From the NCBI RefSeq assembly GCF_040954835.1, contig NC_090698.1:41097501-41161500 (forward strand): a DNA stretch of 64,000 bases. Direction: 5' to 3'. The notes beneath the pieces were generated by a model, which saw only the letters and a list, made by a program, of their open reading frames with translations, was not told the origin of the DNA and did not search any database. The position numbers and the translations under genes were made by a program. Below, one piece after another: positions 12,040-64,000 of this stretch; position 1 is the first letter of the stretch; the number at the start of each line of letters is the position of its first letter. The stretch comes from Lepisosteus oculatus (Eukaryota; Chordata; Actinopteri; Semionotiformes; Lepisosteidae).

Positions 12040-12325
12040 CCAACCCCTTCATCCTTGGAGAGCCAGAGCCTATCCTAGGTCACAATGGGTCCAAGGCAGG
12101 GTACCCCCTGTACAGCACTCCAGTCCATCACAGGGCGCACACAGACAGGGTCAATTTTGCAAGAAGCCAATTAACCTGCTGTATCAGTATGTCTTTGGAC
12201 TGTGGGAGGAAACCCATGTAAACACAGGGAGAACAAATGAACTCCACACAGATAGTGCCCCAGGTCTAGAATTGAACCCATGGCCCCAGTGCTGTGAGGT
12301 AACCACCATACTGCCCACACATACA
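12040..12325 (-). repeat. tRNA-derived fish SINE, nearly complete
   Basis: On the - strand it reads 'gggcagtatggtggttacct', then 'cacagcactggggcc', then the B-box-like 'gggttcaattctagacctgg', the body 'gtgtggagttcatttgttct', and the tail 'cagggggtaccctgcctt' with 'aggataggctctggctctcc'. All landmarks of the family are in order. The poly-GGAT tail is worn. Confidence 0.85.
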
Positions 12326-14629
12326 CTTACAAGAGGAAAAAATAGGATTAAAAAAGCAACACCAGTAAATAATATCTGTATATTATTTAAATAAAATGTA
12401 TTATACACTTCTGTATTAACCAATAATTCATTCTGTATATAGTTTTAATATATTGAACAATTACCTTATCTATACCTCTCCTCATGTGAGTATATTTTCA
12501 TCATTCTCAGGGTAATTTGTACCAAGCTTGGATTCATGAATGTCTATTCATGTCAGAGAACCCATTAAAATTCCTTAGTGTTTTTCTGTTGTTAAAAAAA
12601 TTGCAGAAGCCCTTCCACAGGATTAGCAGTTCAAATATAAAACATATCAAATAAAAACATAGAATGGCTGAATAGCAGTTTAAAATATTTGTACAAATGC
12701 TACATCTTAGAGAACCATTTTAATTTCAATGAATGACAAACATACTTAATTTCAGCGCTAAGCCTTTTAAATTTACATATTATAAGATGAAACTTCATTC
12801 CATCTTGAATTAAAGTCTGCCTTTAGGTTTGCTTTTAATCAAAGGCAAACTGATCTATGCTGGATTTCAAAGTCTTGATGTATTCTAATGAAATTTCCAT
12901 ACCCTGTGGTACTTAACAGCAAAGGATGTTCATTATTATTAAAACTGCTTACAGTTTTTTTTATATAGTTTTACTTATATATCTACATGAAATAAGTGGA
13001 ATTGCTCACATCTCAGCAGTGATATTCTGAAGCTATTCAAGCATCATGTCTTTTCAGAGAACTGTTGTCCTAATTATTTTTGTACACTGATAAGCTTTAA
13101 ATTCCACATTACTGACAATGAAATCAGTTCTTCCAGTAATGTGGCATTTATAATTTAAAAAGCAAATGCATTATATAAATTCAGAGCTGGAAAGAGTCTT
13201 CTAAGAATCTCCAAAGAGTGCTATTCCAGTTCATGTTCTGGTTTATTCTCAATAGCTTTTGTATTAACAACACAGAAAATCTAAATATGAGACTAAAATA
13301 TTAGGGGCTTTTCTTACTGTATACGTCATTGTGTTTCACACAAAGATTGAATGAAAAAGGAAAAACCTTTTCTTTGAACTTAAATATCATAGCATTTTTC
13401 AGACTTTTACATAATACTTGATTACACAATCAATTTTCTTTGGGACTCAATTGCAGGACCATGTTTTAACTAAAGAAGTGCAAAACAGAAGCAAGATAGC
13501 AATTCAAAACCTAATTGGATGTACAAAGAGTTCAATTAAAAAAAGAGGACAAACTACTAAACTTTGCTTCAACTAGCATTAATTCTAGTGTTCATGAACT
13601 CCTTATTCCATGCACTGTGGTGAGTTTGCGATAGTCTCATCTGCTCGACCTAATGTCAAATACTGTATGTATCTCAAATTTTCCACTAAACACTTTAACA
13701 CTAGGGGGTTTATCCAAAGGTATTTAATTTTCATTAAGTTAAGTTGTAGTAAAGTATGCCAAGGGTTTAATGAAAACAGCAAAGAAAGGAGCCTCAAATA
13801 AAATATTAACTCTAACATGAAGATTTTGGTGCTTAAAACAGATAATGTAGTAAGACGATGTGTGTGTGGCTGGTTTGAAACATTATGTGTTTGAAAACTG
13901 TACCTGATAAGTACAAATAAACCTCTATTTTATCTCATTTGTTTGTGTATATCTTGCAGTTTCACAAATACTTTAGTAGAGCACATCAACTGGCCTTATC
14001 CAAATGGCAGCCTCTATTCAGAAAACAAAGGGAAAATTCATTCATCCATTTTTAACACCCACTTAATCAAATACAGGGTTGCAGTGAGCTGTAGTCTAAC
14101 CTTGCAGACAATGGGCACAAGGCAAGATACATTCTGGAAAAGAAACAGGTCCATTGCACACATGGGAAAATATTCAGGCTAAAATAATTTACTTAGCCCT
14201 GTACTGTATTGTTGTAATAACTTGGCAACCAATGTGTTCTACTATGGCCTGATTCCTGTGCAACACGTTGAAGAAAAATTAGCTGAAGCTTAAAATAAGC
14301 TAGCATGCTTTCATTGGCACTCATGAGGAAATAAAACAGCATTGCTTCACACCTTTTTTAGTGTTATAGTGTTTGCATATTTCATCTAAATGCAATCCTT
14401 GTTTAATCCTAGTTAATTTTGGTTGTCACTTTGTCCCAGAATTCAAGAACATTTTGAGACAGAACACATTTTTATATTTTGCTCCTAAGGTAGAAGGAAA
14501 AGTTGCCTAAATAAACATTGCAGTTTCACTTCATTAATATCATTGCTTACTTCGCGTGAGACTGCACACAATATATACATACTGTAACAATACAACCATC
14601 TCCTAACTGCTTTAAATAGTTAAGGATCG
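12326..14629. other. Intergenic DNA, no gene seen
   Basis: AT-rich, no recognisable exon or repeat. Overlapping short open frames on both strands near 13603-13818 show no protein-family signal. Confidence 0.4.
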
Positions 14630-30700: not shown

Positions 30701-33060
30701 CAGTATTTAAAGTAAAGGAAGAAAGATGGGATGAGTGAATACTTTCATTGCTTGGAAAAGGCCCAGACCTTTTAAACAAAAAAAACTTATTTGACATGAA
30801 TGTGATGCAATGGTCGATGCATCATTTATCCTTGTTAGACATACTGCAGACGCATGCAAAAACAGAGGAGGAACGTGTTTTTTTGTTTAATGGTCTCATT
30901 TTAGCATTTGAATAGCTTCTGTGACTATTTCTTAAAACAAAATACAGTAAAATCTTATTTCTGTGGATAAGTGCATTTATTGTAGAACTTGCAAAATATA
31001 TACTGGGCATGAATATGTTCTTATCCTCAATGTACATAGATGGTTTCTGTAAAATAATGTTTAGTGATTTTGTATATTGATTAAATGTTTTGGATGTCAT
31101 ACACTCAAGTGACTTTGACTGTGACATGAAGCATTCACCTAATTAGTCTCAAAGAGGATTCTATGTCCACAGATTATGAATGGTGACAATAAAGACAGAA
31201 AGATGTAGAAAACCAAAATGTCGTGCTAATGAAGAGAACAATGTAGGCAGCTAGAATGTTGGAGGGTGGAATAAGTCTAAAAAATGCACAGCAATTTACA
31301 ACATGGCAAGACATTACAGCCAACACAATCTATCATACATGGGCCACAAGTCGCAGCACTTTGCCAATATCAATTGGGGGGCCAGGTGTTGTAGTATGTT
31401 CAAGAGCATCTACTCGCTACAGAGCTCCACTTCTAATAATTGATGAGACCTGGCTGCACTATGCTGTAAGTAATCATCTCCCTGGATTTCACTTGCTGCC
31501 CCTCTTGTGGGAGCATCCTATATGACAACATTCCAACAGGACAACACTTATCCTGATGCTACTCATCACTTGTACCTTTTTTACAAAATAGTCAGACATG
31601 TTCTTTACGAGATTCTATGAGAGCAATGGAACACAATCCATTAAGACTGTGACTTAGTGGAAGTTTGCATCACTGATGTACAGCTTATTTCCTTTTACAT
31701 GGTGCTACCCTGTGACTTGTATACTTTTATAATAGGCTTTATAAGCCTATCATGGTAGACTATAACTTAAGTTATAAAGGTTATTAACTTTTGATGCGCA
31801 GTACCTATTATACCTTATAATATATAACTTGGCATCTTTCAGAAATTGGTTGGGGAAGACCCTTTGATCAAGCAGCTACCAAACAAACTAAATGTCTTCT
31901 GTTATTTGTAAACGTATGTTCTTTAATGTTTATATAAATAGCTTTTTAGTTGTTTGTGACAATTGTGATCAAAGTGATCATTTAGGAGTTGTTGGCCAGA
32001 GCCAACCAGACAAATTTAATGCATCTAATCAGTGTTGTTTAATATGTCTACCACACACGCTACATTAAAACACAATTCTTCCCAGAATTGATTGCTGACC
32101 CCAAAGAATTTGAGTTTAATGGAGCTGCATTATGCTATGAAAGTAAAATGTAAAATAAAAAAATAGACTGAGATCTTTTATTTTTATACAGATTTACATT
32201 AAACAAGGCAAGTATACTCATTTAAGTGAGGAGATGTTACACACTTATGACTTTGCTTTGGACATTATAAGTTATAAGTGTAAGGAAATAAACCCAAATT
32301 AAATAGCATTGATATAGTACAGTATTTTTACATTGACAGTTGTCATTCCCCTTTTAACTGTTCAAATATAACTCAAGCTTTTTGAAACTCATGCTACTGT
32401 TTGCTTTATTTACAATTAGATTTTATTGGGCTTTATCAGCGGCTTTTGCTTATTCATTTCTTCTTTTTCCGATGACTGCAACTTAATTTAGGTTTTATAG
32501 CTTGTTACCAAGATTAAAGGGAACTTCACACACTGGCTGACATGACCTGGTAAACATAATGGGCTGTAACAGTTCTCCTTGTCAAAATTATGTTTGTCTA
32601 AATAATAAAAAACTGCTAGCAAAAATAGATTCAGCTTTCTAAAGAGTGGATTTTTTTTTCTAGAAAGGTGTTTTGATTGTGGTGAAGATTTTCTTATCTG
32701 TAGAGTGCTATAATAAAGCTTTCAAAGCTACCATATCATTACTTATGTGTTCATGTTATTTGCACTATTTCACAATCTTGAGGTAAAATACGAATGATTA
32801 AAATGCCGGTGTCTTAAAGTAATGAAAAACCATTTGAAAAGTAGACATTTAATTACTTTTTGAAACTGTACACAAATGTAGCATGCTAAAATACAAATAC
32901 TGCTCTGCTCTACTGAAAAATAGCAAAAGTGGCCTGACCGTTAAATTTTAGCTTTCATTGTAGTTTATCTCATTCTGTTCTCTGGCATACTGTGACAATG
33001 TAATGTACAGTATTGTTGACTTAGGTTATATTTTTATTATTGTTGGGGTTTTTTTTCCAG
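24755..33060 (+). other. rgmb: rgmb intron 1
   Basis: Phase-1 intron with GT (24755) and AG (33059-33060, after a T-rich tract). It holds a Tc1 relic near 31240-31640 and otherwise AT-rich sequence. A largely repeat-free stretch at 29440-29800 may be regulatory, which is inference only. Confidence 0.8.
31240..31640 (+). pseudogene. Tc1/mariner-like transposase relic
   Basis: A leading 'MLEGGISLKNAQQ' segment resembles the helix-turn-helix start of Tc1-family transposases. Near 31523-31560 'TFQQDNTYPDATHH' matches the conserved '.FQQDNA.PH.A' block containing the second catalytic Asp. Stops and frameshifts lie between, and terminal repeats were not located. This is a dead insertion inside rgmb intron 1. 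Confidence 0.55.
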
Positions 33061-33578
33061 GAGACTGCCAAGTGCAAACCCCTCAATGTCGAATCCAGAA
33101 GTGTACAACAGACTTTGTGTCCCTCACGTCCCATCTTAACCCCTCCCTGGATGGCTTCGACACCGAGTTCTGCAAGGCGCTGCGGGCCTACTCCGCTTGC
33201 ACCCACCGCACCTCCAAGAGCTGCCGTGGCAACCTTGTCTTTCACTCCGCCATGCTGGGCATCAGCGATCTCATGAGCCAGCGCAACTGCTCCAAGGACG
33301 GGCCTACCTCCTCCACCCACCCGGAAACCGCTGCCGAGCCCTGCAACTATCACAGCCGCCACCATGGCAACAGCAGGGACCTCCAGGCTAAGGAGCACGC
33401 TCAGCCCACCTACCTCTTCTGTGGCTTGTTTGGAGATCCCCACCTCAGGACTTTCAAGGACCACTTCCAGACCTGCAAGGTAGAGGGTGCCTGGCCCCTG
33501 ATCGACAACAACTACTTGTCAGTGCAAGTAACCAATGTTCCAGTAGTGCCCGGTTCCAGCGCCACAGCAACTAATAAG
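33061..33578 (+). CDS. rgmb: rgmb coding exon 2: N-RGM domain and autocleavage site
   Basis: This 518-base exon runs from the T-rich acceptor ...TTTTCCAG to the donor AATAAG|GTAGGC. It encodes [20 protein letters not shown] and the Cys-rich helical N-RGM domain, which binds BMP2/4 in the family. An N-glycosylation sequon lies at about N113 (NCSKD). The autocatalytic cleavage motif [11 protein letters not shown] has its Asp-Pro near residues 163-164 and is followed by the start of the von Willebrand D-like domain ([15 protein letters not shown]). The exon ends ...SSATATNK in phase 0. It closely matches RGMB from other vertebrates and is clearly B-type ([13 protein letters not shown]). The segment [18 protein letters not shown] is the variable loop. 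Confidence 0.97.
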
Positions 33579-36183
33579 GTAGGCAGGTTTGTTGTGCAGA
33601 CTTGTATGCATTCAGTGCCTTTCTGTAGTAAATTAATGCAAAATCCAAGATGTAATGTGACACCTCTTTTGACTTTCTGTTGAACATGTCTGTAGGCTTC
33701 TGTATGAGTTTAATGCTTCCCCATCATTATTAATGCTTCACAGTATGTTGGTTTTGGTCCAGCTTGATCTTCATATTCATTTTTCCACTTTGAAGCACCT
33801 TCTTCTCGCAAGACTTGCATATGGATACACTGCTTGGTCTTTTTTGATCCTGCCTTCAAACCTCATACCTGACACATCTTTTAAAACATTTCAGAGTTTG
33901 ACCCATGTGGACATTTTCCACATTGGTCTTTAGCAGTGTAAGGTGAAACCGACGACAGTATCCCAGCAGCTTTGGAGTAAAAGGTTGGGGGCTTTCATAT
34001 GTAGGAAATAGTTTGGGTTGGTTTCAAGGTAGAGGAAGTATAGTAGTATGTTCTGGTCTGGGAGCTCAACCATCTGTCTTAAATCAGATGTCCTAATAGG
34101 TTTTTAACACTCAATCTTCAGAACTGGAAAAGCTTAACAGGAATAGCTGCTGGGTAGTAGATTCTCCTTGCCCACTTATCCTATTGGAATCTATCCAGGA
34201 CATAAGTGAGAATAGGTAAGCAGATTTCGTGATTGTACTAGAGCACCTGTTCAATATCCTTACAGTAACTGTTTGGTTTCAGGGGTAACGGAGCATTGAA
34301 AAACCCCCAGATCGCCATCGGTGGATAATGCTTTTCTTGAAACTCATGCCTGGTTAACTATCGCTTTTCTGTGGTTAAATCTCCAAGAGTCCATTCCCTG
34401 TGTGTGTATACTAAGCGCTCAGGGAGTGCTGGCAGAGAGGCTCTTTTTTTTAGATCAGTGTTAAATTCTCTGGAATAAGTCCTGCAGCCTGCATATAACT
34501 CAACAATTCTGTTTCTGATGTGTTACTGTATGTTGTAATTTAATGTTTTAATTCCATCATTGAAGTACATTTTTGTTCTGTAGAATTTCCTTCTATAAGA
34601 GTGAAGGAACTGTTGACACTTTGCCACAAGGTTCTGAAAAAAAGGCCTATGTAGAGTGGAGACTAATAATGTGCCTTATTTGTATATTTAGTAAGAATGG
34701 CAAATCTTAACTATTAATCATGCAGCATTCCTAACCAAGAAATATATTTAGATTACTTTTCTTTTTGGGGGGGATTTGTATATATAATCCTGTCATGTGG
34801 TCCATTTTGTGGCAGACATACTAAAAATGCTTAGAATTACTTTATGGAATGTCTTTAAGCTTTTCTGTATACATTAAGTTGCATACTTACTATATACTCT
34901 GGAAGTGAAAAGAAATACCTGGTGTTTCTTGGCAGTTTCCTTAACAGAGTGCAGCTCAAAAACACATCAGGGTTTCCAGGCTTAGATCTAATAGCTAGAC
35001 TTTCTAAGTGGTCCAGACACTGATGTCTGTCACATTTCTATTCAGACAGCACTCATTCATTACTTAGTGTGCTAACTTTTAAGGAACCCCCTCATTATGC
35101 CAAGTGCAACAGTACTGTATAACCTACTTCCTACTACTCATATATGGAAAGATTATTAAGCACACAAGATATGTATTTTCAAAATAAGGATCATTAAGAA
35201 ATCGTATATTAACCTTTGAGAAGCACTTTAAGGACTGACTGAATATTGTCCTTAGAATGCAGTATTACAAATCCAATCCAAACATTTCACACAGCCAGAC
35301 TAAAGACCAAGCACTCAAGACTGTCTCTCGGCATTCTGCGGTGAGAGAACTGTAACTTCTCGCTCTGAAAGTTTGGAGAGAGAGTCATTTCCATTTAGAG
35401 TGCTTTGATAAACAGAGTCTGAATTGATATATGAACAGGAAATGTATGAATTTTTTAACTTTGTAGTAGAATATACACACAACTTTTTCACCCGTAGTGT
35501 GGAATTGCATTAATCCCATTAACATGTCTTATTTGTTTAGACTTTTAAAAAGACAAGGGAAGATAATACAGTATTTAATGTAACACAGCTCATTGGGAAT
35601 TCACCTCTTTTTGCTGATCCACTTATCTGGTTAAAATCCACTTTAAAGATATTCTGTAAATTTAAAGATATGCTTTTGTTCTCCAGCTGGTTACTAATTG
35701 ATTGAAAATTAATTACTTCTAGAAAATACTGTTGTGAATTGTAAATATAAAGAAGACGGGCATTAAATTAATTCACATAAACATCTTATTTTTTCCATTA
35801 ACCATCTTTGGAAACAATTATAATATTATTATTAGATAACAACAGAAGTGTTGTTGAAGTCTTTTTTTCAACTGATGAACTGATCTTCCTTAACGAGTGC
35901 TCAGTTTCTTTGGAATTCTTTGTTTCACTTTTAATAGGGTATGGTCATGTTTGAAGTATTGTTCTTTTTTAAAAAAATTGAAGTGGGTTGGAATTGGTAT
36001 ATTAGACAACGAATCAAAAATACAAAATTAATCACTCCTCTTAGGCTTCAAGATGGAGGACAACAAAACCATCTGAATTTTCTGAGTCATGAAATTTGTG
36101 CAAAATGAGAATCCTTGCCTAATCCATCATTAAAGCTGTATTTCTTTTTTTGATTGTTCATTTTCTTATGTATTTGCTGTTAG

Positions 36184-36530
36184 AGGCGGTCAGTTGCACA
36201 GTGGTTAGCATTGCTGCTTCAAAACACAGGGGCCCTTTGTTTAATTCCTGGGGTGCCATTTGTGTGGAGTTTGTATATTCTCCCCATGTTCACATGGGTT
36301 TCCTGTGGGTGCTCTGGTTTCCCACCACTGTCCAAAGACATACTGGTAGGGTATGTGACCTCTGGGAAAACTAGTCCTGGTACGTATGTGCATTTGTCTG
36401 TTTCTGCCCAGCGATGGACTGGTGTCCAGTCCAGGATGTATCCTGCCTTCAGCCTGTTACTTGCAGGGATAGGCTCCAGCTCCCCAGTTACCCTGTATTG
36501 GATAAGAGTGATTAGAAAATGGATGGATGT
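36184..36530 (+). repeat. tRNA-derived fish SINE, complete
   Basis: All parts are present in order: head 'cagttgcacagtggttagca' (A-box region), 'acaggggccctttgtttaattcc' (worn B box), body 'gtgtggagtttgtatattct', 'ctccccatgttcacatggg', 'ctgtccaaagacatactggt', tail 'cagcgatggactggtgtcca' and 'gggataggctccagctcccc', ending 'agaaaatggatggatg'. Open frames over it (36150-36651, both strands) derive from the repeat. Confidence 0.9.
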
Positions 36531-38399
36531 ATTTGCAGTTTTTTTAAACATAGTCACATTTTTAGTCATTGCATTTTTAAACAATCATCAATGTCAGCTT
36601 CTGTGTTTTCATTTCTGTTCTAATCATATGTCATGCACATCGTATCTTTAAATAAACATGAATGCGTCTTTGAATTTGTAGGACATGGACATTCTGCTGA
36701 TATGCTAGAATATATGCTATTGAAGGACTTATAATAACAATGATTTAAAGCATACATAACATTATATATATATATCCTTAGAAATAACCCATTTTCTTCT
36801 TACACTACATATATTGATGTAACAGACCCCTTTGCTTAGCAGAGTTTGCTCATGGAAAATTAAAATAGAAGTGCTTGATTTTTTTGCTGATGTTTAATTG
36901 CTGCATTGCTCCTCAATCAGCTTATACACTGCCACAGGATGCCAGATTTAGGCAGGCAAATTGCCAGTGTGCTGCAAAGCAGCCATTACAGCATTTTTTA
37001 AATTTTATTTTCCAATAATGTTCTACAGTCAAGCTCAGATTTTGTTTCAAGTTAAAGATACAGTTTCCTCAGCAATGTTCACTTTTGCTGGAATAATTGC
37101 TTGGTTTCAGTTTACTCTGTTGTGCAGTTCTTTAACCTTCGCTGCAGTCAGAGTGGGCAGGCTTTTATCATTGCAGGTGATGAGGTGGATTAATTTCCTA
37201 ACTTGTTTCTCGCTCGCCTTTCACTGTTCCCAGGATCGAAGTGTTGTGTAACATCCTGGCTCACAGAGTAAATGCCACAGTAACTGAGAGGATTGACCAT
37301 GAATTCTTGCCAGTTCAGATAACAAAAGAAAAAAAAATCCTATTACTGTTTTTAACAGCTTGGCACCCCCCTCCCCAGGACTGAGGCTCTGCTATTGTGT
37401 CAACCACATTTTAAAAATTGACTTTGTCAGTCTGCCTATTGCATATCACCAAGATCAACATTATAGTTGTCCCATCTGTTTCCAGTCACAAACAGTGCCA
37501 TCAGCCACAGTTGGAAATCTCTCCCATTGCAGGCTGAGGATGTAAGACTGCTACTATGTCAGTACAGTAAATTTGGCCTAATATGTAGTGCTAATGAAAC
37601 GTTGAGAATTATTTATTATTCTCATTCTTCTATTTTTTTTGTTTGTTTTGTTTTAAACTGACCTGATTATACTTTTAAAAGAAAGTTACCAACTACATTT
37701 GTGTTAAAGCTGCCTTCCCCAGTGTACTCCCAGTGCTTTTACAATTGTGCAGCACATTCTCGGCCTTGACTCTTTTGTTTTTGACTGGGACGTTTTAGGA
37801 AAGCCTTACAGCAAAGCTTCTTTTAGTTAACTAAAAAAAAAATTCCCAGTAATAAAAGTAACCCTGAGATATTTGCATGCAGTAAGCTAATCTACAGTAT
37901 ATCTTTCAACCTGTTTGAGTAGGTATTGTGTGGTAAGGGTTGAAGATAAAACAGAAAACAATTAATGTTTTGTTCCCAAGATGAAAGGTTTTAACACTTA
38001 GACTTAGATCAGATAAACTCATTTTGACTTTGACCAGGTGCATTTAGGTACAAGCGGAAGAAGGCAGAAGTAAAAAGCTGTAGATCTAGCTCCTAAAGGC
38101 AGTGTGGAGGTTTAAGTTTACCATAAATGTGCAGAGAACAATTCTACTAAGCCTTCTGTAAAAGTAAACTTTCATTCCTGAACTTTTTCCCCTAATGATT
38201 AACATTTATATAATGTATCCTGTAGAGTATGTAGTGTTAGGCACAGTATGCAAAACACTTTTTAAAAATGTTTGTATTTTTTACAGATGGTTTTAGAAAA
38301 AAAAAACTATTTTCATATTCTCTTAAAAAAATAAAAAAAATAACTGAATGCTTCACTATGACTATTTAGGGTTTATTTAGGGTAGTATTTACAGGCTAG

Positions 38400-43604: not shown

Positions 43605-43925
43605 GGCAGCATGGTGGTTCAAAGGTTAACATTGCTGCCTTGCAGCACTGAGGCTCTGGGTTCAGTTCTGGACCTGGGGTGCTGCCTGTGTGCTGTTTGT
43701 GTGTTGTCCCATGGTTGCGTAGGTTTCCTCCTGCAGTACAAAGACATATTAGTAAGTTAACTCGCTTCTGGGAAACTTGTTTTTGGTGTCAGTCTGTTTT
43801 CCATGTGATGAACTGGCATCTCCTCAGGGTGTAGCCTGTCTTGTGCCCGTTGCTCGCTGGTATAGACTCTGGTTCCCCCTAGACCCTGAATTGGATAAGG
43901 GATTCGAAAATGGATGTATGCATGG
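43605..43925 (+). repeat. tRNA-derived fish SINE, complete
   Basis: Head 'ggcagcatggtggttcaaag' with B-box-like 'ctgggttcagttctggacct', body 'gtgttgtcccatggttgcgt', and tail 'cagggtgtagcctgtcttgt', 'ctggttccccctagaccctg' and 'cgaaaatggatgtatg'. Same family as the copy at 36184, independently diverged. Confidence 0.88.
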
Positions 43926-44679: not shown

Positions 44680-44975
44680 CTAACTGCCATGTCCAATTCA
44701 GGGTCACTGGGGAGCCAGAGCCCATCCTAGCAAGTAATGGGCTCAGTGTGGGGTACACATGAACAAGACATCAGTCCATCGCAGGGCACACACAGACTCG
44801 CACACACTCACACCTAGGGCCAAATTTCCTAGAAGCCATTTAACATACCAGTATTACTTTGGACGGTGAGAAGAAACCAGGGCACTTGGAGAAAAATCAC
44901 ACAAACATGGGGAGAACATACAAACCCCACACAGATAGCTCCCTGGGTCTGGAATTGAGCCAGGGCCCTGTTAGT
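44680..44975 (-). repeat. tRNA-derived fish SINE just upstream of rgmb exon 3
   Basis: Read on the - strand: 'cagggccctggctcaattcc', 'gtgtggggtttgtatgttct', 'ccccatgtttgtgtga', then the tail 'gcgatggactgatgtctt' and 'taggatgggctctggctccc'. It is antisense to rgmb and ends about 130 bp before the exon 3 acceptor. A fortuitous - strand frame runs from it across exon 3 (44971-45504). Confidence 0.85.
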
Positions 44976-45102
44976 ACTTCCCCCGTTCCAATACCATCTC
45001 GTACCCTAACTGTCTCTTAGAAAACAACACCCTAGTCCAATTAAAAAACGTAAACTTAGAGGGCCGTAAAAAAAAAGCGTGATCTTCTCTTTGTGTTTTC
45101 AG

Positions 45103-45807
45103 ATAACCATCATCTTCAAACCTTACCAAGACTGCACCGATCAGAAGGTGTACCAGGCCGTGACAGATGACCTTCCCTCTGCCTTTGTGGACGGCACGAT
45201 GAGTGGGGGTGACAGTGACACCAGGAGTCTGTGGATTGTGGAGAAGGCCGCTGGGCGGCACGTGGAGATCGAGGCGAACTACATCGGGGCCTCTGTCATT
45301 GTTCGACAAGTGGGCCGATACCTGACCCTGGCTGTGCGCATGCCCGAGGAGCTGGCTTTGGCCTACGACGAGACCCAGGACCTGCAGCTTTGCATGAACG
45401 GCTGCCCCACGGCAGAGCGCATCGACGAGGGTGGGTACCTCCCTCTGCCCGTCCTGGGCCTGCACCAGCCCAGCCACCAACAGCAGCAGCAGCTGCAGCA
45501 GCACAGCCTCCCCCTACAGCCACGCGGAGGCTTCTCGCTGGAGAGCGCCACAGCCAAGTGTCAGGAGCAACTCGAGGTGAAGGACATCTACTTCCACTCC
45601 TGCGTCTTTGATCTCCTCACCACGGGAGACGCCAATTTCACCTCGGCCGCCTACAGCGCCCTCCGGGATCTCGAGGCGCTTCACCCTCAGAAGGAGCGCT
45701 GGCACATTTTCCCCAGGGAAGGCAACGCCGGCCCCTCTTTGACTCCTCATGCTCCTCTCCTCCACCTGACACTCCTCATCTGCTTTCTCCTTGCTGTGTT
45801 TTTGTAG
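45103..45807 (+). CDS. rgmb: rgmb coding exon 3: vWD-like domain and GPI signal
   Basis: Last coding exon, acceptor TTTTCAG|ATAACC in phase 0. It encodes ITIIFKPYQDCTDQKVYQAV, the rest of the von Willebrand D-like C-RGM domain (VRQVGRYLTLAVRMPE; CMNGCP), then DIYFHSCVFDLLTTGDANFT with an N-glycan sequon near N388. The protein ends in a hydrophobic tail (LLHLTLLICFLLAVFL, then TAG at 45805-45807), the GPI-attachment signal. In family members these regions bind neogenin and anchor the protein to the membrane. A Gln-rich insert, QQQQQLQQ (residues about 336-343), lies in the variable linker before CQEQ. The whole protein is 444 residues, against about 437 in human. Confidence 0.97.
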   Translation: MTIIFKPYQDCTDQKVYQAVTDDLPSAFVDGTMSGGDSDTRSLWIVEKAAGRHVEIEANYIGASVIVRQVGRYLTLAVRMPEELALAYDETQDLQLCMNGCPTAERIDEGGYLPLPVLGLHQPSHQQQQQLQQHSLPLQPRGGFSLESATAKCQEQLEVKDIYFHSCVFDLLTTGDANFTSAAYSALRDLEALHPQKERWHIFPREGNAGPSLTPHAPLLHLTLLICFLLAVFL

Positions 45808-49934: not shown

Positions 49935-50195
49935 ATCAATCCATTTTCTAATTGCATCTGACACACTGGACTGAATGTCATTCCACAGCGGAGCAGACAC
50001 ATAGACATACTCACACCAGGGACAATTGTCCTAGAAGCCAGTTAAGCTGCAAATATGTCTTTGGACTGTGGGAAGAAATAAGAGCACTTGGAGGCCAAGG
50101 AGAACATACAAAAGCCACGCAGATAGCACCCCAGCCCCAGAATTGTACCCAGAGCCTCGGCACTGCAGGTGCCACCCCCAAATACACACTTAATC
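49935..50195 (-). repeat. tRNA-derived fish SINE
   Basis: Reverse complement of the family: B-box-like 'gggtacaattctggggctgg', then 'cgtggcttttgtatgttctc', 'ccacagtccaaagacatatt', and a tail reaching 'agaaaatggattgata' at 49935. The central 'gggtgtaccc...ataggctcc' segment has been deleted, so the copy is shorter than the others. Confidence 0.8.
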
Positions 50196-50529: not shown

Positions 50530-51110
50530 AATGTAATCTCTTGCTGAAGAAGGTGACTCTTCTTGAGGTATAATTTGAGGCCCGCCACTTTATTGTATAA
50601 GACTGCCAGGCATGGGCTGACATGGCCAAATTAGTTAACTGCACCTTAAGGTTGTCCAGGAACAGCTGCATACGGACGATAATACTGAATTCAAAACATT
50701 TGTAAGTTTCTTGAAAATTGCTGCTACGTCACAAAATCCGTAAGGAATTATTTGGACCAGCCACAATGCTGATCCTATGGAGAAGGACGTTTTTGAGTAG
50801 GCCTCCAATGCAAGACTCACTTGTCAGTATACACTCTTTAAAGTTGAAAAAGATGAAGATGAAATTAAGCCAAAAAGTGCCTTGGCAGCAGGTATGAGTG
50901 ACCCAGTCAGATCACTGTAATTCATACAAAACCAGAAAGTACCATCTTTCTGTTTAGTAAGCACAACACTAAAGCCTAAAGGCTGCAGGTTAGTAAGCTT
51001 GGATCTTGTGCTTGAGCTTTGCTTCAGTAAACAGCAGCGTGGAGATGTGGTTCTGGACGTGTAACTGAAAAGTTGTGAGTTCATATCCCAGGTGAGATAC
51101 TACTGTAGTA
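50530..51110 (-). pseudogene. Ty3/gypsy reverse transcriptase relic
   Basis: On the - strand, successive frames show the gypsy RT order: 'GFSVVLTKQKDGTFWFCMNY' (about 50990-50925), 'FSTLKSVY' (about 50847-50824), 'KTSFSIGSALWLVQIIPYGF' (about 50793-50734), then 'GLKLYLKKSHLLQQEITFL' (about 50580-50525). These match the PVVLV.KKDG..RFC.DY, FSTLDL.SGY, F.MPFGL and GLKL..KC.L....FLGH blocks. At least two frameshifts and stops interrupt it. Neither LTR nor integrase could be assigned, so it is a pol fragment of a dead retrotransposon. Confidence 0.8.
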
Positions 51111-59057: not shown

Positions 59058-59432
59058 TGTAGCATGATGGCACACTGGTTAGCATTGCTATCTCACAGTA
59101 CTGGGGCCCAGGGTATAATTCTAGTCCTGGGGTCCTACCTACCTCTTTTTTGTACAGTATGTTCTCCCAGAGTTCATGTGGGATTCCGTCTTGTTCTCTG
59201 GTTTCCTCCCACTGTCCAAAAACATAGTGGAAGGATAACTGGGTTCTGGTAACATTGGCCCAGTTGTGAATGTGTGCATGTCTATGCCTATGTTTATGTC
59301 TGTCTACCCTGAGACAGATTGGCGTCCTGTCCAGGGTGTACCCTGCTTTGCAGCTGTTGCCAGCCAAGATAGGCTCCAGCTCCCCCACAGTCCTGAATTG
59401 CAAGAAGAGGTTAGAAAATGGATGACTAGAGT
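59058..59432 (+). repeat. tRNA-derived fish SINE, complete
   Basis: Head 'agcatgatggcacactggtt' and 'agcattgctatctcacagta', worn B box 'gggtataattctagtcctgg', body 'tgttctcccagagttcatgt' and 'ccactgtccaaaaacatagt', tail 'ttggcgtcctgtccagggtg' and 'gataggctccagctccccc', end 'tagaaaatggatgact'. Frames on both strands across it (59005-59481) derive from the repeat. Confidence 0.9.
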
Positions 59433-61043
59433 AACCAGTCCACAGTGCACATACATCCACAGTATATATATTATCATGTAACTTACAAATACTTGTATTG
59501 ATCAGCGTCTTTCGAGCTGTTGCCTATTTAGTTATCCACCACCAAATTGTCTGCAGAAACTTAAAAAGCTAATCACTAATCAAACCTATTTTCTGAAACA
59601 ATCAGTATTGCTACATTTAGTGAAAATCAAAATGTCATATTTTTTTAATTATAAAGTACCAAAAAATGTTTAAAAATCGGAAAATTACAGTTTTCAGGAA
59701 GTTACAGTGAAAACAATTGAGTTATTTTTAGTAAGGAGGTATTGTGGAATATCTGTATGAAACCTGGTCCTCTAGAATACCCCACAACCAAATTGCCACT
59801 TACAATTGCAAGGGATAAACAAAAAACATAGGCATATAAAGAAAAAGAGAGACAAAGATTTAAATCTTCCCTTTGTCTTAATTTATTGCCAAAAGTGGTT
59901 TAATGTGATTGAAAAACATTCTATGTAGCCATCAGGTATAAAGTAAAAAAACTGCATAGATCTTAAATACAAAGAACCTTTCCTTTCCTTTAAATTTTAA
60001 ATAAATATCGACCATTTATTGGATAATGAAAAGCTATTTTAAGAAGATGGTTTCATGCACAACAAGTTGCAGAAAGGCTGAATCAAGGATGTTCTCAGAC
60101 TCTGCCACACACATTGAATTGCATGAGGACCTAGGTTGGTGGGGAAATCTTCCATACAGGTAGTGAGTTTGCTTTGCAATGGTAGAGTTATTTCCCTTAT
60201 GCCTTTCATTGTGAAACAGGAGAAAACCTGATATTACACATTTGAAGGGCCCAGGTTATGCCGTTTTGTTGCCCTGTGTCCTTTGTCTACCTGTTAAATT
60301 TTGCCATGCATCATGAGGCTCTACTGGATGAAGTAATTTGCTTATTTGCTTGGATATCTAAAATGTCAAGGTCATAAGAAAACACTGCTTTCATGCTGGT
60401 CTGTTACACAGCTTACATAAAATCTTATGAAAAGACACATCCTCTCCTCATCAGCCAAAATCAGAATCTCCTATACTGTATGTCTGGTGCACACTAGTAG
60501 GTATAATACAGACGTTTCATTATACTCTTGTAACAACTGGGTGAATATAAATGTGCACACTGATATCGTGACTACAGTATGCTCCTTTTACATCTTCAGT
60601 ACATACTTCTTCAATTGTCCCAATAAAAGATCTATTTAAATGACATTGAAAATAAGTTCTCTCGCTTAGCATCATTTCATCAATACTGATGCAGTCTGGT
60701 AAACCACAGAACTCCTCGTTGTCAGATACTTCATGTCTTCACTGGGAACTGTAGCACCTCAAGAAGTGGAGAACTCCAGCGTAGATTGTGTAGACATTTT
60801 CAGGTCCCTCGTTTATATTAGACCAGTTAAGCCATCTAAAAAAAAACAAGCAATTTTTACATAATTCAATTCACCATTTCAATAGTTATTTGGTACCATT
60901 TGGTGCCACAGAAGATGTTCATGATTTAAATGTTTTTCATATTAAATAATTTGTTAAAATAAGATTTTTGATTAATACATAACTTACTTATTGAGTTTAT
61001 CCTGCACTAGTATAGAATCTTAGTAAAATTCTCTGTGAACATC
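59433..61043. other. Downstream flank / 3'UTR of the ptcra candidate
   Basis: On the - strand the ptcra 3'UTR would start at 61043. The nearest AATAAA on that strand that I find is at 60015-60020 (TTTATT on +), about 1 kb beyond the stop. A possible splice acceptor (T-rich then TAG) ends at 60836, discussed in the findings. No other gene is seen. Confidence 0.4.
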
Positions 61044-61153
61044 TTACCATTCCATAATCAGTATCACAGTCATCATAAAGTTGAAGATAATGCTCTTCCA
61101 AAGAAGAATTCTCAGAGCCAAGATAAATACAGATTCCGAATGATTCTGAATAC
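61044..61153 (-). CDS. ptcra: ptcra candidate exon 4: transmembrane helix and stop
   Basis: From the acceptor TTCGCAG|GTATTC this phase-1 exon encodes GIQNHSESVF, then the membrane helix ILALRILLWKSIIFNFMMTV and ILIMEW, stop TAA at 61046-61044. The helix has Arg147 and Lys152 separated by four residues, as in human TCR-alpha (LRILLLK) and pre-TCR-alpha (LRLLLFK). In these proteins the two charges hold CD3 chains. The 'FN..MT' that follows is also TCR-alpha-like. The tail after the helix is only a few residues, unlike the long proline-rich mammalian pre-TCR-alpha tail. The stop lies inside a good splice donor (TG|GTAAGA), so a further exon is conceivable. Confidence 0.8.
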
Positions 61154-61684
61154 CTGCGAAGATTGTTTTTCATGTTACAAACTTTTGTCTATTTATTGTA
61201 AAATAAAGATATATGCTATTCTGTCATTCACCTTTTTTGTTTCACATTTGCAAATTTAATCATGAAGTACTGTTTAAGATTAAAATACATTGACTATAAT
61301 GTTAATAATACATCCATTTAAAATGGATGTTAACTATTTAATTTAATCAAGATTTACTGTAAGGACATTATTACAAAATTTCTCAGTCCCATGTGACATG
61401 TGTAGTGAACATACCTTAAGTACTGTTTAAGAAAACAGTGTTTTATGAAACAAAACACCACCTCAACAAAACAAACAATTTAAATTCCACAAAATATAGA
61501 TACTCTGTTTTCATTTTATGATACATGTCCATATAAGTACATCTATTCAAATATTACTGTCACCTAACCAAATTGACATGAAAGAAGCTTCACTAAAATG
61601 CTTTCACCTTTTTATTCAATAGTGCTTGTTTATTATACTTTTTGCATACAGATAGAAGATAATGTTAGAATACTGCAAGATTAC

Positions 61685-61735
61685 CTTGAGTGACATTCCA
61701 TAAATCTGCATAACATGTGTTGTCCAAGTCATTTT
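61685..61735 (-). CDS. ptcra: ptcra candidate exon 3: connecting peptide with Cys
   Basis: A 51-base exon with acceptor TTCAATTCAG|AAAATG and donor CTCAAG|GTAATC, phase 1 on both sides. It encodes ENDLDNTCYADLWNVTQ. The single Cys123 is placed like the connecting-peptide cysteine of pre-TCR-alpha and TCR-alpha, which forms the disulfide with TCR-beta. N129-V-T is a potential N-glycosylation site. The exon is too short to be found as an open frame. It is supported by its phase, splice sites, position between the C1 and transmembrane exons, and the single cysteine. Confidence 0.75.
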
Positions 61736-62229
61736 CTGAATTGAAAAAGTAGAAATATTGTAATTTTGCAAATCTTTCCATAATGTATTCTACTGCACAG
61801 TCCCAACACAATTATTTTGATTTTCAAGCAGTGCTGACCATTCAGTATTCACCCCTTTTTTCAATGTTTCACTGTTCTCCTTAACAGTGCTGAGCAAAAA
61901 TCAGGTAAAGTCACATATTTTATCTTATAAAATGTAGCCTAAGAGTAAACATTTTTAATTATGGTTGAAATTTGAAGGAAGCATCTTATTTGAATCACTG
62001 CTTCGGTCACATACAGATTGTTTTGCAATTTTAATTTTAGTAGAAATTCATATATATGCTTTAAACAGTGTTCAGATACTATTTTTTTCTATTCATGAGT
62101 TTAATTTTAGCAAAAGTTGTGTAACACATTTCCTCTGAATGCATTTCTTTCAATGCAAAAGGCAGGAACATTAAAAGCAGTCAGTTTCTGGTCTTTAGGT
62201 AGACAGTAAACAATGATTTAAAATCTTAC

Positions 62230-62538
62230 CAGTCAAGTCAGCATAGTGTTTGCTGATAAGCATTGCTGTGCTCTTGTAATTCACAAAGCAGGTGTAAGAA
62301 TCCCATTCATTTGAGGCAACTTCAATGAGTGAAATAGCACTGTGCGTCCCATCTTCTTCCTTTGCAACATTATAGGTTATGTAGTCTGAAGATCCTTTGG
62401 ATCCGCTGGAGAGCCAAGTCACCTCAACATCATTATGAAGGAAGTCACTAACCAGACACACCAGAATAGTTCTGCTTCTGCCATCTGGATTGTGAAACGG
62501 TGGTGCTAGTGTAGCGAAGATGTTGGCATCCACTCCCA
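62230..62538 (-). CDS. ptcra: ptcra candidate exon 2: C1-type Ig domain
   Basis: A 309-base phase 1-1 exon, acceptor TTGCACTAG|TGGGAG and donor TTGACTG|GTAAGA. It encodes one immunoglobulin constant-type domain: C40 (ILVCLVSDF), W54 (VTWLSSG), and C96 in WDSYTCFV, 56 residues after C40. Landmarks shared with mammalian pre-TCR-alpha, as I remember it, are F..LAPP before the domain, VCLV.D, W.S.G followed by D..TY, and DGT. Antibody, TCR-beta/gamma and light-chain C domains share the Cys/Trp core but not the LAPP, D..TY and DGT set together. There is no J segment or recombination signal in front. In the family this domain pairs with TCR-beta in immature thymocytes. Confidence 0.85.
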
Positions 62539-63566
62539 CTAGTGCAACACATTGGCAAAAAAATATGATTTTAGGGTTGTGTTAATTTGACTCTTGGATG
62601 GCTGTATTCAGAGACCTATGATAGAGGTTCCCTATCAAATCTGTCATTTCGCTGAGATGGCATAGGGGATATGTGATCCTTCAACACTTCATAAAGCATT
62701 GAACCACAATCACTGGCTTTTTGAGGAAAATGGAGAGTCAAGCAGGGTGTTATATTGCAGCATTAAAATGCGAGATCACTCTTTGTCCTCTGCCCATCCA
62801 CTACCGGAACAGACTTTCAACCTCTACTATATCTTCCACTGTCTGATTTTCTCCTCCATGGAACTCTGAAAGACGGTCTATAAAGTCGGTGATCACAAGG
62901 TCCAAAACACAGTGCAGTTATGGCTTAAACAACAAATTAAGCAAAGAATCTACAACAGTATCAAGAATCTTCTGAGTATCTGGTTCCTGTATATGGATTT
63001 TTATTTTCAGTCTTTTCAATGACTATAGTACTCAACACTATGATGCTGTAACGAAATGCACATCATGTTTACTGTTTTTTTAAATAGTTGTCTCATGTGT
63101 TGACAGAACTGCTATATGAAAAAAACTTTCCAATAAATTAAAGTGATTGCTTGTTTAATTTGTGAATTACTTTAGTTTTTTAAATACTCTGTGAGAAGAT
63201 GAAACATTGCAAGCTTACTACTGTAACTTCTATAGCATAATACTGTATATCAAGAGCGAACTACTACAAAAATAACAAAATGAAGCTTTCTCATTCACAA
63301 TTCCTCTTATATTTCACTTCAGACTGACTCTTTGTAAATGCTGTGCTTCACAGCTCTAAATGCCATATAAAACCAATACATGAAACATGCATAATCCATA
63401 TTAAAGCATCACACTTTCTCCATTTGCATATAATACATGACTCAAACGTGGTGAATGTGAAATGAGATTTAAGTTGTCATGTTTTTTAATTAATTAAGAT
63501 AAAACACGTCATGTTTTTGCTTTAAAAGCTATGAAATATGTTAGTACAAATAATATTGCTACTTAC
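62539..63566 (-). other. ptcra: ptcra candidate intron 1
   Basis: Phase-1 intron of 1028 bp, GTAAGT...CTAG. I looked for a V domain, a J-like FG.GT motif or RSS heptamer/nonamer pairs on the - strand and saw none. The leader therefore appears to be joined directly to the C domain. Confidence 0.65.
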
Positions 63567-63603
63567 TTGCCATGAGCTCTATGATAAGGATGCTAAGCAG
63601 CAT
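63567..63603 (-). CDS. ptcra: ptcra candidate exon 1: leader peptide
   Basis: The ATG at 63603-63601 (A at -3, fair Kozak context) starts MLLSILIIELMA, a short hydrophobic signal peptide. The exon ends after one base at ATGGCAA|GTAAGT, a near-consensus donor in phase 1. That is exactly the phase exon 2 needs, and the junction codon becomes ATG (Met13). Human PTCRA has the same design: a leader exon, an Ig exon, a connecting-peptide exon and a transmembrane exon. The complete predicted protein is 168 residues. The leader is short and would benefit from transcript support, so confidence is lower than for exon 2. Confidence 0.65.
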
Positions 63604-63733
63604 CCTGCTGTACTGTGCAGTTTTAATGAGGTCACTGTGTTGTGAGTGCTTATGAAGTCAGGGTCAGGTGACATTATACTCACTTGCTGGAAAGCAACTT
63701 AATCTGATGGCAATCTGCCAAGAAAAGGAAGGT

Positions 63734-63740
63734 TTTTATA
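63734..63740 (-). promoter_or_regulatory. ptcra: TATA box of the ptcra candidate
   Basis: TATAAAA on the - strand lies about 130 bp before the ATG of exon 1, predicting transcription from about 63.70 kb and a 5'UTR near 100 bases. E-box motifs (CANNTG) lie nearby at 63665-63670 (CAGGTG), about 63799 (CATCTG) and about 63854 (CAACTG). Mammalian pre-TCR-alpha is activated by E-proteins, but single E-boxes are common by chance. Confidence 0.5.
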
Positions 63741-64000
63741 ATGGGAGAAAGAAAAACTTCAAAAGACACTTTTAACAGTTTCATCAACAGCACTCTGAAC
63801 ATCTGAAGAAAAGAAGCATAATTTGTTAAAATATGTGTTAACTAGTCTACAACTGCTTTCTCCCTGGCTGGAAACAAAACCTCTTAGGTAAATAGTAACA
63901 ACAATTTGCAGTGCTGATGTGGCCTATTTATTACAACTAAGGATCAGGAATGATCTGAACTAACCACTATGTGTTCAAATGGAGCACATCCAGTACTGTA

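Follow-up and report, generated by a model that had tools for sequence, protein, structure and literature searches.

A probable pre-T-cell receptor alpha gene in the ray-finned fish Lepisosteus oculatus

In mammals, the pre-T-cell receptor (pre-TCR) contains a surrogate alpha chain that pairs with TCR-beta through its constant (C) domain and a disulphide of the connecting peptide, and an arginine and a lysine in the membrane recruit CD3 and zeta dimers. The gene for this chain, PTCRA, is built of a leader exon, an exon for a C1 immunoglobulin (Ig) domain, a short cysteine exon and a membrane exon. TRAC requires a rearranged variable-joining (V-J) unit and TRDC a rearranged V(D)J, and neither has a leader of its own. 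Here we describe a four-exon gene resembling PTCRA (hereafter the ptcra-like gene) in a stretch of 64,000 nucleotides of Lepisosteus oculatus DNA (contig NC_090698.1, positions 41,097,501 to 41,161,500), which as a whole is called the window. The gene is real, intact and widely conserved in fish, and with good probability it encodes a fish pre-TCR-alpha.

Layout of the ptcra-like gene

Splicing of the minus strand between 63603 and 61044 rebuilt the model of the initial annotation to the base, with four exons, canonical splice sites (donors GTAAGT, GTAAGA and GTAATC; all acceptors ending in AG) and three introns of 1028, 494 and 531 bp, each in phase 1. The spliced frame of 507 nt encodes 168 residues, and the protein anatomy read earlier from the letters, namely a leader, a single C1 domain carrying C40, W54 and C96, a connecting peptide in which C123 is the sole cysteine, and a helix with R147-x4-K152, was recovered in full. 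The exons are listed below together with two flanking pattern matches.

63567..63603, minus strand: exon 1, 37 nt, start codon and hydrophobic leader (MLLSILIIELMA-)
62230..62538, minus strand: exon 2, 309 nt, C1-set Ig domain with C40/W54/C96
61685..61735, minus strand: exon 3, 51 nt, connecting peptide with one cysteine (C123)
61044..61153, minus strand: exon 4, 110 nt including the stop, transmembrane helix with R147-x4-K152
63735..63740, minus strand: TATAAA (pattern match), some 130 bp 5' of the start codon and no more than a possible core promoter
60015..60020, minus strand: the nearest AATAAA 3' of the stop (pattern match), at a distance of about 1 kb and no more than a possible poly(A) signal

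The helix covers residues 123-167 and reaches the last residues before the stop, which follows it directly, thus leaving the protein without a cytoplasmic tail. The leader exon lies directly 5' of one constant-type Ig exon with neither V nor J beside the gene, in agreement with the earlier reading that no such sequence separates leader and C domain. A V exon is absent from 61260-64000, because that interval holds no frame of at least 70 residues beyond that of exon 2; for the rest of the window, no profile search for V genes was made. J-like matches to [FW]G.GT number three in the window (27972, 50182 and 54948), none of them near the ptcra-like gene or near a site resembling a recombination signal sequence (RSS). 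Such sites, allowing up to three mismatches, comprise one with a 12-spacer and one with a 23-spacer, at 13333 and 23226, against expectations of 0.7 and 0.8, and no RSS stands above chance across the 64 kb. Upstream of the start codon of the gene, 397 bp remain before the window ends.

A profile of 23 other fish proteins, built without the window protein, was compared with all 3558 stop-to-stop stretches of at least 12 residues in the window. The exon-2 segment came top with 145.1 bits, followed by the exon-4 segment with 35.4 bits; the third-ranked stretch scored 6.5 bits, and this ranking places the gene beyond chance. Exons 1 and 3 are matched at the same places in full-length fish relatives, and the start and leader type of exon 1 are common to the proteins of bowfin, tarpon, eel, bonefish and carp.

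Relatives across ray-finned fishes

A single-sequence search returned 10 related proteins and a profile search 36 fish clusters, of which 27 carry a species name, representing 25 ray-finned species, and 9 carry none. The initial annotation had proposed a search for orthologues, and relatives were indeed found in bowfin, sturgeon and teleosts. The non-teleosts are the sturgeon Huso and the bowfin Amia. The others comprise six elopomorphs (Anguilla, Conger, Synaphobranchus, Megalops, Albula and Aldrovandia), eight cypriniforms (Culter, Onychostoma, Cirrhinus, Xyrauchen, Carassius, Danionella, Triplophysa and Labeo), the characin Metynnis, the knifefishes Electrophorus and Brachyhypopomus, the catfishes Ameiurus, Clarias, Silurus and Bagarius, the anchovy Engraulis, and Arapaima, for which the match covers the cysteine and membrane parts only. 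By sequence, the window protein is nearest to bowfin, with 60% identity along the entire protein, and to beluga sturgeon, with 66% within the Ig domain. In six fish species, records already bear the NCBI name ptcra or ptcra-like; the remaining relatives shown are called hypothetical, uncharacterized or, for one Labeo record, Ig lambda-1 C region. Salmon, pike, cod, medaka, perch-like fishes and zebrafish are not among the 27 named matches of this word-limited search, which also gave the 9 matches without a name. Their non-appearance may reflect losses or the limits of the search; Danionella has a gene. Shark, coelacanth and amphibian are likewise missing from the 27 named matches, which for a word-limited search is no proof of loss.

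The diagnostic residues are well kept. R-x4-K occurs in 25 of the 36 clusters; the 11 without it are truncated, misassembled or extend into an intron. The connecting-peptide cysteine is found in 22 of the 25 as well as in all seven rows of one alignment. The three motif-bearing clusters without it (P0007, P0027 and P0033) are models missing exon 3. One of them, the predicted isoform X2 of Anguilla rostrata (P0007, compared with P0004), omits exon 3 and therefore lacks the cysteine expected to bond TCR-beta. When fish and mammalian PTCRA proteins are aligned, R147 and K152 are present in at least 90% of rows, and C40 and W54 are invariant in a 50-row alignment.

Leader-first products of about 160-180 residues are predicted in several fish species. 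Additional hints come from the seven clusters of the lgn source. Five of them (P0018, P0026, P0030, P0034 and P0035) run from exon into intron, as judged by comparison, whereas P0015 (contig of 1030 nt) reads unbroken through exons 2-4, and P0016 (contigs of up to 3484 nt) through the leader and exons 2-4. The behaviour of the five suggests that lgn proteins are simple reading frames; if they are, P0015 and P0016 look like products of spliced transcripts, in the second of which the leader would be joined straight to the Ig exon.

Identity and ancestry of the encoded protein

The PTCRA-like identity put forward in the initial annotation was upheld by profile searches against PTCRA, TRAC, TRDC and other C1 families, by the NCBI-named relatives and by the exon design. 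In Pfam, the window protein matches C1-set (51.4 bits) and PTCRA (PF15028; 43.3 bits against a cut-off of 23.1), and shows no match up to an E-value of 10 to DUF1968 (PF09291), the TRAC family. Among eight controls, TRAC and TRDC from both human and mouse, together with human TRBC, TRGC and IGKC, do not match PF15028, and human IGLC (IGLC1) reaches 15.6 bits, compared with 239.5 bits for human PTCRA as positive control. Human and mouse TRAC score 130.4 and 135.4 bits with DUF1968. With an E-value limit of 1, PF15028 matches 26 of the 36 fish clusters, and DUF1968 is not among the 14 Pfam families matched by any of the 36.

A profile made from mammals only (nine PTCRA rows) gives 58.2 bits for the window protein and 14.3-61.7 bits for all 23 other fish rows, compared with 0.8-12.2 bits for nine TCR and light-chain controls (at most 9.1 for TRAC and TRDC); Electrophorus (14.3 bits) and Bagarius (14.5 bits) come near the best control. 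By profile, then, the window protein is closer to mammalian PTCRA than to TRAC, TRDC, TRBC, TRGC or Ig light chain. In the reverse test with the fish profile, all nine mammalian PTCRA rows score 34.0-49.8 bits and four TRAC and TRDC controls 18.4-30.5 bits. Profile-profile comparison, which used 13 fish clusters and the window protein together with 11 of 112 further clusters from a wider protein search, gave 98.1 (11 rows) or 73.5 (2 rows) for fish against mammalian PTCRA over 149 columns. The corresponding values are 57.7 for IGLC, 45.7 for TRAC (with 35 aligned columns, in the membrane part only), 44.2 for TRDC, 35.2 for IGKC, 21.0 for TRGC and 19.5 for TRBC. The wider search covers the best 120 of 175 proteins, and relatives from sauropsids, lungfish and amphibians may be among the other 55; of its 112 clusters, 9 entered the trees and profiles and 22 the second structure model mentioned below.

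Set beside the known systems, the gene has the PTCRA order (Pfam PF15028, PDB 3of6) of leader, C1, short cysteine exon and membrane exon without V or J, and its protein shares with the mammalian chain the stretches F..LAPP, VCLV.D, W.S.G, D..TY and DGT and the membrane R-x4-K. It differs in having 26-28% identity to wombat and mouse PTCRA over the Ig domain, in its lack of a tail, and in its C1-set score, which for human PTCRA is 12.8 bits. With TRAC it has in common a cysteine-bearing connecting peptide, the membrane helix LRILL.K..xFN..MT and the lack of a tail, but in Pfam the TRAC proteins of human and mouse have no match to PTCRA or to C1-set, and the leader exon, which TRAC lacks, is conserved across fishes. 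TRDC is similar in its C1-set match (29.5-29.8 bits), its cysteine and its helix with R-x4-K, but it has no PTCRA profile match and is 21% identical over the Ig domain.

Three trees were computed, from all parts, from fewer rows and from the Ig domain only, and each contains a branch that separates fish plus mammalian PTCRA from the remaining rows. The all-parts tree, the Ig-only tree and the fish profile used 23 of the 36 fish clusters; the 13 dropped were fragments, doubles and intron read-throughs (P0007, P0015, P0018, P0019, P0021, P0026, P0027, P0029, P0030, P0031, P0034, P0035 and P0036). The fewer-rows tree also omits Huso, Aldrovandia, Engraulis, TRGC and IGKC. Five rows (Huso, Synaphobranchus, Aldrovandia, Engraulis and Mus) were shortened by hand, mammalian rows were cut to 175 residues, and the rows of the Ig-only tree were cut by position and motif. 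Among the fish sequences, the gene tree groups the elopomorphs except Megalops, the two clupeiforms, the cypriniforms, and a set of characin, catfishes and knifefishes, as would be expected for one inherited gene. Bowfin is joined to the partial sturgeon row, with the window protein outside both (88/66).

Several results weigh against reading the gene as PTCRA. The supports for the branch uniting fish and mammalian PTCRA (93/75, 93/95 and 86/75) do not reach the mark of the tree tool in any tree, and in the fewer-rows tree the fish rows by themselves do not form a single group. Placement inside TRAC or TRDC, which the initial annotation had singled out as an outcome that would speak against its reading, is not what the trees favour, but approximately unbiased (AU) tests reject neither fish with TRAC (p of 0.227, 0.113 and 0.287, at a cost of 1.2, 7.4 and 0.6 log units) nor, in two trees, fish with TRDC (p of 0.132 and 0.217, at 7.4 and 1.2 log units). 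The tree set was composed without fish TRAC and TRDC, the fairest outgroups, and without sauropsid PTCRA. Separation is poorer with the fish profile than with its mammalian counterpart: human IGLC (35.8 bits) scores above mouse PTCRA (34.0 bits), and human TRDC reaches 30.5 bits. Plain identity does not discriminate, the Ig domain being 28% identical to mouse PTCRA and 27% to human IGLC. The top PDB sequence matches are Ig constant domains, with 3of6 not among the 60 matches listed. The Ig domain is modelled as a C1 fold for which 3of6 ranks sixth, tied, with the first structure model and is not listed with the second, and fold searches list major histocompatibility complex (MHC) and Ig C1 domains without singling out PTCRA. 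In amniotes, PTCRA adjoins CNPY3, with RPL7L1 or POLR1B on its other side, according to PMC9614664. The fish gene adjoins RGMB, and CNPY3 and RPL7L1 were not found in the window, with its 397 bp of 5' flank, by human queries. Only one flank is visible, however, and therefore synteny speaks neither for nor against PTCRA identity.

The main rival is a separate origin in which a leader exon captured a duplicated TRAC- or TRDC-type constant gene within ray-finned fishes, giving a chain with a function like that of pre-TCR-alpha that is not the orthologue of amniote PTCRA. Besides the unrejected TRAC and TRDC placements and the lack of neighbours shared with the amniote locus, it could draw on the membrane stretch LRILL.K..IFN..MT, which by eye is as similar to TRAC as to marsupial PTCRA, and on the published absence of PTCRA from amphibians. 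We nevertheless consider it unlikely in view of the gap between the 58.2 bits of the window protein and the TRAC and TRDC scores on the mammalian PTCRA profile, the fact that TRAC rows match DUF1968 and not PTCRA while no fish cluster matches DUF1968, and the grouping with mammalian PTCRA in all three trees. Since the tests leave the TRAC and TRDC placements unrejected and the set lacked the fish TRAC, fish TRDC and sauropsid PTCRA rows, orthology of the fish gene with mammalian PTCRA is likely, that is, favoured rather than proved.

A dispersed TRAC or TRDC constant gene, whose exons 2-4 would be joined to a V-J outside the window and whose exon 1 would be spurious, is largely refuted and very improbable. 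A C1 exon followed by a short cysteine exon and a membrane exon is the layout of TRAC, and the window stops close to exon 1, but the leader and start codon are conserved in the full-length proteins of other fishes, leader-first products are predicted in several species, and neither an RSS above chance nor a V-sized frame beside the gene was seen. Still harder to credit is another C1 protein of the Ig superfamily, such as part of a lambda5-like surrogate light chain or an MHC-like protein, with a chance likeness to PTCRA. The PDB and fold matches, the one Labeo record named Ig lambda-1 C region and the IGLC score on the fish profile would agree with it. However, light chains have neither a connecting peptide nor a membrane helix bearing R and K, the mammalian PTCRA profile scores favour PTCRA, and placement of the fish rows with Ig light chain was rejected in both trees in which it was tried (p of 0.0095 and 0.034, at a cost of 19.4 and 16.6 log units).

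Neighbourhood, proposed function and significance

RGMB is the sole other clear gene in the window; it and the ptcra-like gene face each other tail to tail at a distance of about 15 kb. CHD1 (C-terminus), LIX1, RIOK2, CNPY3 and RPL7L1 gave no match in the window at E up to 0.1 with human queries. No repeat common to the rest of the window overlaps the ptcra-like gene. The other features are as follows.

24643-45804, plus strand: RGMB (repulsive guidance molecule B), coding exons from 24643 (by eye), 33021-33581 and 45100-45804
12146-12297, 36196-36532, 43641-43923, 44692-44967, 49978-50167 and 59070-59424, both strands: dispersed repeat resembling a short interspersed nuclear element, copy pairs 67-75% alike over 91-364 columns
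50824-51099, minus strand: candidate Gypsy-type reverse transcriptase stretch (VVLTKQKDGTFWFCMNYSDL) in a reading frame, by eye only

Relative to the human protein, the last exon of RGMB carries a glutamine-rich insert, HQQQQQLQQHS.

If the gene is indeed a fish pre-TCR-alpha, its action can be pictured as follows. In early thymocytes the chain would enter the endoplasmic reticulum, where its C domain would pack against that of a freshly rearranged TCR-beta chain, to which C123 would form a bond, and R147 and K152 would recruit CD3 and zeta dimers. The resulting pre-TCR would signal without ligand, whereupon TRB rearrangement would stop, cells would proliferate and TRA rearrangement would open (beta-selection). 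The tailless state of the fish chain is in keeping with human pre-TCR-alpha, whose tail is reported to be largely dispensable (PMC12842982). It is reasonable, by analogy with the mammalian system, to suppose that fish thymocytes may use the chain as a surrogate alpha.

Printed accounts place PTCRA outside fish. PTCRA is said to be restricted to mammals, some reptiles and birds, with an argument built on its lack in teleosts (PMC6747487); no PTCRA was identified in teleosts and frog (PMC8559430) or in amphibians or fish (PMC10464911); pre-TCR signalling might not occur in teleosts (PMC5840141); ectothermic vertebrates are indirectly suggested to lack pre-TCR-alpha (PMC9138301); and its origin is placed in amniotes (PMC9614664). 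No report of fish PTCRA was found in the passages searched of the open-licence literature. The statement of the initial annotation that a fish version is not generally recognised agrees with these passages, but has to be qualified for the databases, where records of the six species already carry the name. A conserved fish gene thus contradicts the printed view, held in papers up to 2025, of an amniote gene, at which the database names already hint.

It is fairly probable, though less so than the identification of the gene itself, that pre-TCR-alpha and a beta-selection checkpoint date back to the last common ancestor of bony vertebrates rather than being an amniote invention, were lost separately in amphibians and perhaps in the teleost group of medaka, trout and perch, and were kept in carps, characins, catfishes, eels, bowfin and sturgeon. 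The published absence from fish and amphibians has been taken as evidence for a pre-TCR innovated in amniotes, or for another manner of both lineage choice and allelic exclusion in fish T cells. A conserved fish gene with the anatomy of pre-TCR-alpha removes this argument from absence for much of the ray-finned tree. It also makes fish beta-selection directly testable, e.g., in gibel carp or goldfish, catfish, Danionella or sturgeon, and fishes without the gene would serve as natural knock-outs for comparison. If this reading is true, the beta-chain checkpoint of T cells may be far older than thought.

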